From Burkholderiaceae bacterium (GTDB lineage Bacteria; Pseudomonadota; Gammaproteobacteria; Burkholderiales; Burkholderiaceae_C), in NCBI GenBank assembly GCA_017856435.1, contig JAFMFB010000003.1, positions 27,234 through 91,233 of the forward strand: a stretch of DNA of 64,000 nucleotides. Direction: 5' to 3'. Position 1 is the first letter of the stretch, and every line of letters begins with the position of its first letter. Below are positions 1 to 63,398 of the stretch, in pieces. A program made the position numbers and the translations under genes. The notes under the pieces were generated by a model that was not told the origin of the DNA, did no database searches, and saw nothing but the letters and a program-made list of their open reading frames with translations.

Positions 1-2497
1 CCTCGTTTTTCACCGAGTCAAGTAACTGGCCAAACAACTCGAACGCCTCGCGCTTGTATTCCTGCTTGGGTTGCTTTTGTGCGTAGCCTCGCAAATGAAT
101 ACCTTGGCGTAAATAATCCAGCGCACTCAAATGCTCCCGCCAATGCGTGTCGATACTTTGCAGCAGCACCATACGTTCAAATTGCAGGAAGTTGGCCGCA
201 CCCACCTGTTCGACCTTTGCGGCGTATGACTTGTCGGCCAGTTCAACAACTTGTTCCAGGATATCCTCATCGTTGATATCACTGGCACTTTGCACCGCAG
301 CACTTATCGGGTGGTCGATCTGCCACTCATCATGCAAAACTTTTTCCAGGCCAGGCAGATCCCACTGCTCCTCGACCGACTCCAGGGGAACAAACTGGCG
401 AACAAGGTCTGTGAAAGAGCCTTGCCGCAAAGAAGTAATCTGGACCGACAGGTCTTCTGCATCCAGAATGGCATTGCGCTGTTGGTAAATCACCTTGCGC
501 TGGTCATTGGCCACGTCATCGTATTCCAGCAATTGCTTGCGGATATCAAAGTTTCTGGTTTCCACCTTGCGCTGGGCGCTTTCAATGCTTCTGGTGACAA
601 TACCCGCCTCGATCGCCTCGCCCTCAGGCATCTTCAGGCGGTCCATGATGGCGCGCACCCGCTCGCCGGCAAATATCCTCATCAAGGCATCATCTAGACT
701 AAGGTAGAAGCGGGAGGATCCTGGGTCCCCCTGACGACCTGAGCGACCGCGCAGCTGGTTGTCGATACGGCGGGACTCATGCCGCTCGGTGGCAATGATG
801 CGCAGCCCCCCAAGCGCCACCACCTTGTCATGATCTAGGTTCCATTGAGCGCGCAAATCAGCAATTTGCTTCTGCTTGGTATCCGCGTCAATGCTTTCTT
901 GGGCTTCAATGGCCTCGACCATTTTTTCAATATTGCCGCCCAGCACAATGTCCGTGCCACGGCCCGCCATGTTGGTGGCAATGGTGATCATGCCGGCACG
1001 CCCGGCCTGGGCAATGATCTCCGCTTCACGGGCATGCTGTTTGGCGTTGAGCACCTGATGCGGCAACTTTTCTTTTTCGAGAAGCTTGGCAATGATTTCA
1101 GAGTTTTCAATCGAGGTTGTACCGACCAACACTGGCTGGCCACGCTCATGGCAGGCGCGTATGTCGGCAATGGCTGCCTCGTATTTTTCACGGGTGGATT
1201 TGTACACCCGGTCCAACTGGTCCTCTCGTTTGCTGGCGCGGTTGGGTGGTATGACAACAGTCTCCAGGCCATATATCTCCTGGAATTCATAGGCTTCCGT
1301 ATCGGCGGTACCCGTCATGCCGGCCAGCTTTCCGTAAAGACGGAAGTAATTCTGGAAAGTAATGGATGCCAGGGTCTGATTTTCAGCCTGGATTGCCACC
1401 CCCTCCTTGGCCTCTACCGCCTGATGCAGCCCGTCGCTCCAACGACGGCCGGCCATCAACCGCCCAGTGAATTCGTCAACGATGACAATTTCCCCGTTTT
1501 GAACCACATAGTGTTGGTCCCGATGGTAGACATGATGCGCCCTCAAGCCCGCATAGAGGTGATGCATCAGTGTGATGTTAGAGGGATCGTACAAGCTGGC
1601 GCCTTCAGCCAGCAAACCGGCAGCACTGAGAATGGCTTCGGCATTTTCGTGACCCTGCTCAGTCAGAAATACCTGATGACTTTTTTCATCCAGTGTGAAG
1701 TCGCCTGGCTTGATCACACCTTCACCAGTTCGTGGGTCAGCCTCTCCCTCCTGGCGGGATAGTTTTGGCACGACCTTGTTGATGGCCTGATAAAGCGCTG
1801 TGTGATCTTCGGCCTGACCGCTGATGATCAAGGGCGTTCTTGCCTCGTCGATCAGGATCGAGTCAACTTCATCGACGATGGCATATTTGAGACCCCGCTG
1901 CACGCGATCGGTGACCTCATACACCATATTGTCACGCAGGTAATCAAAGCCAAATTCATTGTTGGTTCCGTAAGTGATATCTGCCTGATAAGCAGCTTGC
2001 TTGTCCTGGCGTTGCATCTGGGGCAGGTTGACACCCACGGTCAACCCCAGAAAGTTGTAGAGTTTGCCCATCCATTGAGCGTCTCGGTTGGCCAGGTAGT
2101 CATTCACGGTAACCACATGCACACCGCCACCGGCCAACGCGTTGAGGTAAACCGGCAAGGTAGCGGTCAAGGTCTTGCCCTCACCGGTTCTCATTTCAGC
2201 AATCTTGCCTTCATGCAGCGCCATGCCACCAACCAGCTGCACATCGAAGTGCCGCATCTTCATGACGCGTTTGGACGCCTCACGTACGACGGCAAATGCT
2301 TCGGGCAACAAGTCTTCAAGCGACTGGCCGTTGGCAATATGCTGACGAAACTCTGTGGTCTTGGCCTGTAAGGCCTCATCACTCAGCTGTTGATACTGAG
2401 GCTCCAAGGCATTGATGCGCTTGACAACGCCCTGGTATTGTTTGAGCAGCCGATCGTTACGGCTGCCAAATAACTTGGTAAGAAGATGGGTGACCAT
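1..2497 (-). CDS. secA: Preprotein translocase ATPase SecA (3' end beyond window)
   Basis: SecA is the cytosolic ATPase that pushes unfolded preproteins through SecYEG. The minus-strand frame stays open from an ATG at 2497 to the window edge, giving 832 codons. The protein begins [16 protein letters not shown], and a Walker A stretch [12 protein letters not shown] lies near residue 102, as in known SecA proteins. The last visible codons ([12 protein letters not shown]...[14 protein letters not shown]) match the helical wing/scaffold region. Family members have about 900-920 residues, so the C-terminal linker and any zinc-binding tail are off the window. The ORF track omits the gene because it has no stop here; the large plus-strand ORFs over it are shadows. 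Identification is certain. Confidence 0.97.
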
Positions 2498-36070: not shown

Positions 36071-36772
36071 CTAGCTCGGTTGCTTCTGTGAGGTTTTGGG
36101 CCGACCAGGTGGCAAGGGGTTGACCCGTCGTTGCGTCAGTCCCTGGAGCTCACGTATAAACTTTGGATCTCCCAAGGCCCAGCCGTGAAGCACCGATTCC
36201 GTCAATCTGGCCTGCTGATTGGCACTGAGTCCGCCGTTGACCAACTGCTTGTAGGCCACTTCACGGGCAAAGGGTGTATTGCCCATCGACCAATAGAGAG
36301 AGGGTGGCGTGATCAGTCGGTCGTGGCTCAAACCGGCGTAGTGTCCATAACTCGACCAGATGAAACCCTGGGCATGTTCAACCAGCCCGGCGCGCACCGG
36401 ATTGAGATCGATGTAGGCCATACATTTCAGCAGGTAGGCCTCACTGTCGATCAGGTTGGATCTGTAGCGTCCCTCCCAGAGAGTTCCGCTACGCACATGA
36501 CGGTTGTTGAAATAACGGACATAGCGCCTTCCCACGGACTGCATGAACTTGGGCAGGGAATCATTTTGCTGTGGCGTCACCAGAAGATGAAAATGATTGT
36601 CCATCAGGACATAAGCATGGACCGCCACCTGGCTGGCTAGCGAGTACTCATGCAAAAGTGCGAGCATAAAGCGTCGATCAGCCTCGTCCAGAAAAATCTG
36701 CTGCCGGTTGTTCCCCCTCTGTATGACATGGTGCGGGTAATCGGCAACTGTAAGTCTGGGCAGGCGAGCCAT
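36071..36772 (-). CDS. REP-associated tyrosine transposase (RAYT, Y1/HUH family)
   Basis: A single-strand HUH endonuclease of the IS200-like Y1 family, linked to mobilising short repeats. The protein starts MARLPRLTVADYPHHVIQRGNN, contains the HUH motif in LMDNHFHLLVTP and the catalytic tyrosine in AYIDLNPVRAGLV, with GTLWEGRYRSNLI typical of RAYTs. About 233 residues, apparently intact. The track start at 36781 is a TTG; the ATG at 36772 is preferred, though no Shine-Dalgarno is visible. It is flanked by inverted repeats, so it is probably a recent or once-active insertion. Confidence 0.9.
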   Translation of the reverse strand: MARLPRLTVADYPHHVIQRGNNRQQIFLDEADRRFMLALLHEYSLASQVAVHAYVLMDNHFHLLVTPQQNDSLPKFMQSVGRRYVRYFNNRHVRSGTLWEGRYRSNLIDSEAYLLKCMAYIDLNPVRAGLVEHAQGFIWSSYGHYAGLSHDRLITPPSLYWSMGNTPFAREVAYKQLVNGGLSANQQARLTESVLHGWALGDPKFIRELQGLTQRRVNPLPPGRPKTSQKQPS

Positions 36773-36805
36773 GTTCAGCAAGTTCGAAGTGAAACAAATG
36801 GAATG

Positions 36806-60851: not shown

Positions 60852-62033
60852 ATGGCGAACGACTTCCTTTTCACCTCCGAATCCGTCTCTGAGGGCCACC
60901 CTGACAAGGTCGCGGACCAGATTTCAGATGCCATCCTCGATGCCATCTTCAAACAGGACCCTCGCTCGCGGGTTGCTGCCGAGACCCTGACCAACACCGG
61001 CCTGGTCGTGCTGGCGGGCGAAATCACCACCAATGCGCATGTCGATTACATCCAGGTAGCACGCGACACCATTCAGCGCATTGGGTATGACAACACCGAG
61101 TACGGCATCGATCACAAGGGATGTGCGGTGCTGGTGGCTTATGACAAGCAATCCAATGACATTGCCCAGGGTGTGAACCAGGCCTCTGACGACCACCTAA
61201 ACACCGGTGCTGGCGACCAGGGCCTGATGTTTGGCTACGCCTGCGATGAGACGCCTGAGTTGATGCCGGCCCCGATTTACTACGCCCATCGACTGGTCGA
61301 ACGACAGGCTCAGTTGCGCAGGGATGGACGCCTGCCCTTCTTGCGGCCCGATGCCAAAAGCCAGGTGACCATGCGCTATGTGGATGGCAAACCGCACAGT
61401 ATTGACACGGTGGTTCTCTCCACCCAGCACAGCCCGGATCAGAGCGAGACCCAAACAAAGCTCAAAGCCAGTTTCTATGAGGCGGTGATCGAGGAAATCA
61501 TCAAACCGGTGCTGCCCAAGGAATGGCTCAAGGACACGAACTACCTGGTCAACCCGACCGGACGCTTTGTCGTTGGTGGTCCCCAGGGCGACTGCGGGCT
61601 GACCGGTCGTAAGATCATCGTGGACACCTACGGCGGTGCCTGCCCGCATGGCGGCGGTGCCTTCTCAGGCAAAGATCCCTCCAAGGTCGACCGCTCGGCT
61701 GCCTATGCCACCCGCTATGTGGCCAAGAATGTGGTCGCTGCTGGCTTGGCCAGCAAGTGCCAGGTACAGGTTGCCTACGCCATTGGTGTCGCGCGCCCGA
61801 TGAACATCACCGTGAACACCCACGGCACAGGCGTGGTGTCAGATGAGAAGATCGCGGCTCTGGTGGCCGAGCATTTCGATCTGCGACCCAAAGGCATCAT
61901 TCAAATGCTCGACTTGCTGCGCCCTATTTATGAAAAAACCGCTGCCTACGGGCATTTCGGTCGTGATGAGCCTGAGTTCACCTGGGAAAAGACCGACAAA
62001 GCTGCAGCGCTGCGCGCAGCAGCCGGCCGCTAA
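60852..62033 (+). CDS. metK: S-adenosylmethionine synthetase MetK
   Basis: MetK makes SAM from methionine and ATP in the cytoplasm. The 393-residue protein shows the N-terminal [21 protein letters not shown] (in pieces), the ATP-loop [12 protein letters not shown], the signature [19 protein letters not shown] and C-terminal [13 protein letters not shown]. All are standard. It stands as the first gene of a plus-strand group with GT9 and GtrA-family genes. Confidence 0.98.
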
Positions 62034-62057
62034 GGCCGCAACGCGCGTGGTTTGACG

Positions 62058-62128
62058 GTCTTTCGGCGTAGGCTCACATCGGCACAGCCGATGTGAAGGG
62101 CCGCAAGGCCAGGCCGAAGCCAAAAGAC
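62058..62128 (+). ncRNA. Candidate three-way-junction structured RNA between metK and the GT9 gene
   Basis: A closing stem GTCTTTCGGC/GCCAAAAGAC (nine of ten pairs), a symmetric GTA/GAA internal loop, and a GGCT/GGCC pairing enclose two hairpins: CACATCGGC-ACA-GCCGATGTG (nine perfect pairs) and GGCC-GCAA-GGCC with a GNRA tetraloop. It lies 25 bases downstream of the metK stop and 25 bases upstream of the GT9 start. No T-tract follows, so it is not a plain terminator. Identity unknown. Confidence 0.5.
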
Positions 62129-62153
62129 AGCGCATGAAAAAGAGGACACCCTC

Positions 62154-63398
62154 ATGAAACTACAAACGCAACGCTGGATCGACCGCTGGGTAGGTCAGGT
62201 GCTGTGTGCTGCGGTTTCTCTATGGGCACATCTGATGAGGTCGCCCGCAGCAGCGTTTGGCGGCAGCAACTCTCCTCGCCATATTTTGGTCATTCTGTTG
62301 TCGGAGATGGGCAGCATCGTGCTGGCCGGGCCGATGTTCCAGGCCTTGCGCCAGCGGTTTCCAGATGCGACGCTCCATGTCCTGCAACTGAAAAAGAATC
62401 AGGAAGTGGCGCGCATGTTACGTCTGACCCAGGACGCCAACCTGCATGCCATTGACGACAGCTCAGGCACCGCCCTGGTGCGCAGCATTTGGCGAGTGAG
62501 CCTGGCCATGCGCCGCCTGCCGTTGGACGTGGTGATCGACTGCGAGTTGTTCTCCCGCATCAGCAGCCTGCTCAGCTACCTCACTGGGGCGCCACGGCGG
62601 GCCGGCTTCACCCCGCATACCCAGGAAGGACTGTACCGCGGCAGCTATATCAACTGCGCGATCCCCTACAACCCCTACCAGCACATCAGCCTGCAATTTT
62701 TGTCCCTGGTCGATGCTCTGCAAAGCGAGCGAGCGCCGCGTCACAAGGCCGCCCCGGTCCGAGCCCTGCCCCATGAGACCGGCTTGGCTGTGCCTTTCTC
62801 ACCTGAAGAGCTCACCGCCTATCGAGCCAAACTTCTTGGCGATCACCCTGTGCTGGCCAATCGCAAGGTCGTGCTGATGTACCCGGGTGGCGGCATCCTG
62901 CCCGAGCGCGCCTGGCCGGCCGAGCACTACGCCCGCGTGGCCCATGACCTGTGCGAAGCTGGTCATGCAGTCGGGCTGATCGGCCTGAAGGAAGACGCAC
63001 AACTGGCTGCACAAATCTGCCAGCAAGTTGGTAGCGCCCACTGCATTGCTCTGACTGGCTACACCCGCAGCCTGCGCGAACTATTGATGCTTTTTCATGC
63101 CAGCCAATTGCTGCTGACCAACGATGGTGGACCGGGTCACTTTGCCAGCCTGACGCCAATCCGAACACTCATGTTCTTTGGCCCCGAAACCAGTCGGCTC
63201 TATGGTCCGCTTCCTGGCTTAAGAGCTGCCAGCCTGGGCCCTCAGGCTACGGTCTTTGAATCGGGCATTGCCTGCTCACCCTGCCTGTCTGCCTATAACC
63301 ACCGCCAGACCTTCTGTGACGGTGATAACCAATGCCTTAAACGCATTGCGCCCGACCCGGTGCTCCATACTGCACTGCAGGCACTGCAGGAAGCGTGA
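62154..63398 (+). CDS. Glycosyltransferase family 9 (heptosyltransferase-like)
   Basis: A GT9 enzyme resembling ADP-heptose:LPS heptosyltransferases, acting in LPS core or another glycan on the cytoplasmic side. The 414-residue protein has an N-terminal Rossmann-like part (HILVILLSEMGSIVLAGPMFQAL in pieces), MYPGGGILPERAWPAEHY, and the donor-site TNDGGPGHFASLTPIRTLMFFGPE (in pieces). Cysteines near the end (CSPCLSAYNHR, FCDGDNQCL) are a feature of several GT9 proteins. GAGGA precedes the ATG. Confidence 0.9.
   Translation: MKLQTQRWIDRWVGQVLCAAVSLWAHLMRSPAAAFGGSNSPRHILVILLSEMGSIVLAGPMFQALRQRFPDATLHVLQLKKNQEVARMLRLTQDANLHAIDDSSGTALVRSIWRVSLAMRRLPLDVVIDCELFSRISSLLSYLTGAPRRAGFTPHTQEGLYRGSYINCAIPYNPYQHISLQFLSLVDALQSERAPRHKAAPVRALPHETGLAVPFSPEELTAYRAKLLGDHPVLANRKVVLMYPGGGILPERAWPAEHYARVAHDLCEAGHAVGLIGLKEDAQLAAQICQQVGSAHCIALTGYTRSLRELLMLFHASQLLLTNDGGPGHFASLTPIRTLMFFGPETSRLYGPLPGLRAASLGPQATVFESGIACSPCLSAYNHRQTFCDGDNQCLKRIAPDPVLHTALQALQEA

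Follow-up and report, generated by a model that had tools for sequence, protein, structure and literature searches.

A 58-nt three-way-junction core behind metK that probably belongs to a dispersed insertion element of Burkholderiales

Introduction

The window, a 64,000-nt stretch of a Burkholderiaceae genome, holds a structured sequence in the gap between metK and a GT9 glycosyltransferase gene. An earlier note, made from the letters alone, drew it as a closed 71-nt fold and offered three roles for it: a leader controlling the glycan genes, a metK 3' element, or a copy of an intergenic repeat family. We asked which of these the structure is and how it may have come to stand behind metK.

Results

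Folding of positions 62058-62128 gave -39.7 kcal/mol against a mean of -20.2 for shuffled sequences (z = -6.5; 0 of 200 shuffles were as low). The fold contains an outer stem, a 3x3 GUA/GAA internal loop and two hairpins, one of 10 pairs and one of 4 pairs capped by a GCAA loop, which confirms the closed structure drawn earlier (outer stem, symmetric internal loop, two hairpins, GNRA cap) as well as its spacing of 25 bases from the GT9 ATG (62154). There is, however, a second pairing partner for the 5' arm of this stem (62049-62063), namely the coding 3' end of metK (61988-62002). When the metK 3' end was included, this pairing became the minimum-energy fold at -71.2 kcal/mol, and forcing the outer stem gave -69.1, that is, 2.1 kcal/mol worse. 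The fold is present as drawn, but the metK tail is about as good a partner for its 5' arm. Since the arm pairs with the coding tail, the 71-nt structure is part of a larger unit that starts inside metK and covers about 61988-62121 plus the right flank (Table 1).

Table 1. Features of the unit at metK and of related sequences. A slash after GA marks the insertion boundary.
Feature	Positions	Strand	Description	Basis
GA plus W	61986..62002	+	target-site end of metK, GA/AAAGACCGACAAAGC; 5' arm of the pairing with W'	folding, W/W' survey
Palindrome	62001..62023	+	within the metK coding tail, GCTGCAGCGCTGCGCGCAGCAGC	other metK units, in which the sequence differs and the pairing is kept
Small hairpin	62025..62037	+	metK stop codon TAA in the loop, GGCCGCTAAGGCC	folding
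W'	62049..62063	+	GGTTTGACGGTCTTT, reverse complement of the metK end; doubles as 5' arm of the outer stem	W/W' pairing, folding
Conserved core	62064..62121	+	C-GGC-GUA-GGC, hairpin 1, hairpin 2, GCC-GAA-GCC; three-way junction with GNA/GNA internal loop	folding, covariance model, covariation
Core hairpin 1	62074..62096	+	TCACATCGGC ACA GCCGATGTGA	folding, covariation
Core hairpin 2	62099..62110	+	GGCC GCAA GGCC	folding, covariation
Right flank w	62122..62136	+	AAAAGACAGCGCATG, what is left of a direct metK target-site copy; the outer stem takes its 3' arm from the first 7 bases	intact direct copies at other loci
metK	60852..62033	+	S-adenosylmethionine synthetase, target gene	PF00438, PF02772, PF02773
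GT9 glycosyltransferase	62154..63398	+	downstream neighbour, beside metK with or without the element	PF01075
Y1 transposase	36071-36781	-	RAYT-like	PF01797
Abundant dispersed repeat	L203/L308 query positions 254-328		CCGCCTCCCCCTCAAGGGGACAAC...	

A search of 62058-62128 against Rfam (4227 families) found no family above its gathering threshold. When the window and 19 other loci of the element were searched, only isolated sub-threshold matches were seen (snoU83B, Twister-sister, radC, P5). The best of the weak scores, 27 bits for Twister-sister (34 needed) and 26.4 for radC (40 needed), were absent in sister copies, and all four identities were rejected as isolated and below threshold. The earlier note recognised no known riboswitch and recommended this comparison; its judgement is upheld.

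We aligned 84 copies of the core and found that 94.9% of pair cells were standard and that both sides had changed in 19 of the 25 pairs. None of 500 shuffles reached the observed pairing, and slid partners were about 41% paired or less. A lack of compensatory changes had been named beforehand as evidence against the structure; this objection fails because the covariation is very strong. The consensus reads C-GGC-GNA-GRC, hairpin 1, A, hairpin 2, GYC-GNA-GCC-A. Hairpin 1 is often capped by a GNA triloop, the first C stands opposite the last A, both unpaired, and the GNA/GNA loop is symmetric. The alignment demonstrates that a single covarying structure, the core, occurs at the ends of many unrelated genes. 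A strand test that compares G-U with A-C pairs gave 23 vs 13 for the whole core (p = 0.13), and 12:1 for hairpin 1 only, where the stems were preselected.

A second, longer hairpin family was observed at L011 (~1452-1591), L013, L015, L028 and L029. It has hairpin 1 in common with the element (CATATCGGC-GCA-GCCGATGTG) and forms a single long stem (GGATTCGACGGCAC...GTGCCGGCAGAACCC) without a second hairpin.

The covariance model of the core was run over genomes of the genus and the family. Within the genus the element was found in 21 of 26 genomes, most of which hold several to 20 copies, and five small or basal genomes hold none; within the family it was found in 98 of the 251 genomes sampled and 63 of 141 genera. 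Many copies genome-wide had been expected to point to a repeat. In the source genome both sequence and covariance-model searches find the core once, but relatives carry up to 20 copies after unrelated genes, and of the three proposals the intergenic repeat family proved right. The exact core pattern was found in public genomes of Curvibacter, Rhodoferax, Rubrivivax, Piscinibacter, Aquabacterium and Oxalobacteraceae, and the public records carrying it are from Burkholderiales or Betaproteobacteria, plus records labelled just Proteobacteria and one Candidatus genus. A plasmid search returned one 27-nt match, judged to be chance, and viral contigs searched with the core pattern returned none. A comparison of unit with gene identity gave no sign of horizontal transfer, in that metK units were not clearly closer between genera than metK itself, some unit ends being miscut. 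The family looks undescribed in the open-licence papers that we searched.

We recovered the region around metK and GT9 from 22 genomes of the genus (from G015 in two pieces). The element lies between the two genes in 8 of these 22 loci, and 14 keep the neighbourhood without it; the element-less gaps measure 30-64 nt in 13 genomes and are longer in G015, the nearest relative of the source genome, which has no recognisable core at metK. A structured leader or riboswitch specific to the GT9/GtrA glycan genes would fit the position 25 bases ahead of the GT9 start. However, 14 of the 22 loci do without the element, an identical core type stands behind unrelated genes, among them groES, glmS, gapA and acs, and Rfam has no match. 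As a general function such a leader is already refuted; it could be at most a local side effect, and we consider it highly improbable. The suggested metK 3' element was half right: the end of metK does anchor the unit, but as one target among many.

We laid out 110 copies and found that 92 lie behind an in-frame stop codon on the same strand, with a distance from stop codon to core that in first copies is mostly 14-70 nt. The unit consists, in order, of the gene tail with its stop codon, beginning at W, then filler, W', the 58-nt core and a second copy of the tail. W' adjoins the left edge of the core and is the reverse complement of W, a stretch in the tail of the gene. The W/W' pairing score averaged 10.0 compared with 5.2 at random places, and 67% of scores exceeded the 99th percentile of the control. 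GA directly precedes W in 67 of 73 unique sites, against a background of 6.4%, and the first four bases of W (n = 81) include CAAG 23 times, CAAC 9, AAAG 8, AAAC 7, GAAG 5 and GAAC 3. On the 3' side of the core there follows a direct repeat of the first part of W, which often extends to the entire tail; the control for this was taken within each locus, the control across loci being contaminated by orthologous tails.

From Pfam or a conserved C-terminus we take the targets to be metK, glmS, groES, gapA, acs, argF, a norD-like gene and the gene of an Fe(2+)-trafficking protein and, on the same basis, those of NAD(P)H-flavin reductase and cytochrome c', pstB, gdhA, ftsW, motA and others. Targets that recur across different genera are metK, glmS, groES, gapA, argF and flavin reductase. 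The groES copies (L091, L093, L113, L114, L115, L122) lie between groES and groEL in several genera.

Filled and empty sites could be compared within the genus at a gene pair that we take, from the encoded peptide, to be nuoC/nuoD. The site is empty in G007, G008, G011, G016 and G019 and filled in G018 and G020, where the difference comprises a second copy of the 33-bp AAAATTCAG.GTGTA.TTCTTGATCTCGGCCAT together with filler of about 26 nt, W' and the core, with the element antisense at the start of nuoD. The target duplication that tests for an insertion element was found here, at the one site with clean filled/empty evidence. A filled site carries a second tail copy, which measures 33 bp at nuoD and 39 bp at acs, followed by filler, by W' (an inverted copy of the first ~12 tail bases), by the core and by the original tail, and the gene stays complete because its tail is duplicated. 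The 39-bp tail of acs (L175) is duplicated perfectly and that of the Fe(2+)-trafficking gene (L117) near-perfectly. The insertions demonstrably start at GA/NAA in gene tails and comprise a tail duplication, an inverted W' that directly adjoins the core, and the conserved core itself. The copy at metK is probably one old, single copy of a non-autonomous short dispersed insertion element of Burkholderiales with a 58-nt three-way-junction core.

Behind the element at nuoC/nuoD, G018 carries a further, unrelated insertion. This sequence belongs to a different dispersed repeat, which is abundant in the genus and occurs many times in a genome (Table 1).

At metK two alternative insertion points (site A and site B) are in use, and the metK tree requires 13 changes among none, site A and site B, at least 4-5 being forced per group. 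At flavin reductase we observed true empty sites and decayed copies, and the source genome is empty there. W and W' at this gene form a near-perfect 12-bp hairpin that persists although the encoded amino acids change; there are 10 double changes and not one pair altered on a single side only. This upkeep points to correction against a template, or to re-insertion, more than to RNA evolving step by step; a match kept over such long times is not accounted for by insertion on its own.

The same hairpin and its double changes, together with the strong covariation of the core and its location just behind the stop codons of highly conserved genes, also between groES and groEL, would suit a 3' structure that serves the host, in which the stop-codon hairpin and the three-way junction protect or tune housekeeping mRNAs and are kept by RNA-structure selection. 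We regard this as unlikely: presence is patchy at every gene examined (metK, 8 of 22 loci with GT9; flavin reductase, empty sites), remnants at flavin reductase are decayed, an insertion at the start of nuoD runs antisense to the gene, and there is no U run for termination.

Tandem arrays of 2-4 units were found at L123/L108, L124, L126 and L150, each unit repeating the gene tail and stop codon with a period of about 136-192 nt. The tails within arrays are identical, and the double changes at flavin reductase come without G-U intermediates. Both observations agree with an origin without any mobile enzyme, in which template switching during replication, together with the correction of quasi-palindromes close to a stable hairpin, makes W' and the tandem tails and keeps W equal to W'. 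However, the fixed GA/NAA boundary and the same core at many unrelated genes need a specific process, and we give this origin a small chance.

At argF four congeners differ in insertion site or in the last residues. In the copies L209, L212, L214 and L215 the last ornithine carbamoyltransferase residues become GRLA, GIQK, GALK and GALT, the codons and stop coming from the filler. The right flank of L215 derives from a second site, as would be expected if two nested copies recombined via their cores.

Discussion

We propose a scheme for how the insertion element may spread, to which, as a whole, we give slightly less than an even chance. An enzyme would nick the strand opposite GA/NAA and open a long stagger, and the free 3' end would be extended by a copy of the core. 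Once folded, this core would snap back and copy ~12 bases of the overhang, giving W' directly beside the core, and the long duplication would arise when the ends are joined with filler and the gaps filled in. Later recombination between direct repeats could yield tandem arrays, nested copies and losses. The recurrence at the same genes is explained just as well by a guide model, with W' pairing to the strand of the target. We suggest only tentatively that the family represents a bacterial mobile element of a new class. Its three-way-junction core of ~58 nt, which holds no gene, would insert at GA/NAA in gene tails with the tail copied so that the target gene survives, and with the ~12-nt W' as snap-back product or guide.

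Y1/RAYT, RVT_1 and Y2 were each considered as the mobiliser and rejected, since their presence across genomes does not track the element. RVT_1, the family covered by this search, is absent from the element-rich G021, G013, G024, G223 and G031. Y1 is absent from G223, G123, G132 and G196, which hold 5 to 19 copies, and Y2 (PF04986) is missing from all ten genomes that were tested within the genus, only 5 of 27 genomes having it.

These absences bear on a further possibility, a guided single-strand element (rolling-circle or IS200/IS605-like) in which tail, filler, W' and core move as one strand, so that the gene tail arrives with the unit, and W' acts as a guide of ~12 nt, pairing with the target so that the core end abuts NAAG or NAAC. 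Units do stay with one gene across genera, W starts mostly with CAAG, CAAC, AAAG, GAAG or GAAC, and at the norD-like gene (L074) and metK (L100) the unit tail and the displaced tail differ while encoding the same peptide. However, Y2 is missing in all ten genus genomes tested and Y1 in several element-rich ones, the acs tails are identical, as simple duplication predicts, and to our knowledge IS91-type elements are not expected to duplicate their target. We consider such a strand-transfer route doubtful. A parallel for it is IS801 (IS91 family), whose insertion sites are GAAC, GGAC, CAAG and CGAC and which mobilises neighbouring gene fragments (PMC3189936). Our element resembles that family in that adjacent gene fragments can be carried, and perhaps in that one end abuts GAAC/CAAG-like tetranucleotides, the starts of W being related to these but looser; it differs in its 33-39 bp target duplication, its inverted target copy and the lack of any Y2 found in the genus.

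The element is also similar to REP and REPIN elements, which are associated with RAYT (Y1) transposases (PMC2817692, PMC3116915). It shares with them short dispersed palindromic repeats, compensatory stem changes, tandem clusters, the lack of an own gene and a G-N-A-G stretch, which in the element lies at the 5' side of hairpin 1. In contrast to a REP doublet it is one 58-nt three-way junction, it starts in gene tails and it has an inverted target copy; some element-rich genomes have no Y1, and the Y1 gene of the window is not flanked by the element. Within the window the flanks of that gene are TTGGGGTCAGA-type sequence and not the core. The Y1 gene is single-copy in most genomes of the genus and lies several times near metK-GT9.

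Like MITEs, the element is small, non-autonomous and dispersed, with direct repeats at its borders, but it has no fixed terminal inverted repeats, its W' arm changes with each target gene, its duplications are far longer than usual and filler is present. SINE-like target-primed insertions of eukaryotes combine a structured core, a T-rich opposite-strand nick site and long variable target duplications; the element shares the first and the last and, in the scheme proposed above, would share the nick site. It differs in being bacterial, in W', which has no SINE counterpart, and in the absence of RVT_1 from several element-rich genomes.

We know of no described transposition route that fits a target-derived inverted arm together with a GA/NAA boundary, and the family therefore makes a new insertion mechanism testable. 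It also cautions that strong covariation beside a gene is no proof of a gene-specific riboswitch. Copies between groES and groEL could shift the balance of both proteins. If our reading is right, widespread structured insertions have rewritten the 3' ends of core genes (metK, glmS, groES, gapA, acs, argF) across Burkholderiales, unannotated, and would sometimes have altered the last amino acids of the target proteins.
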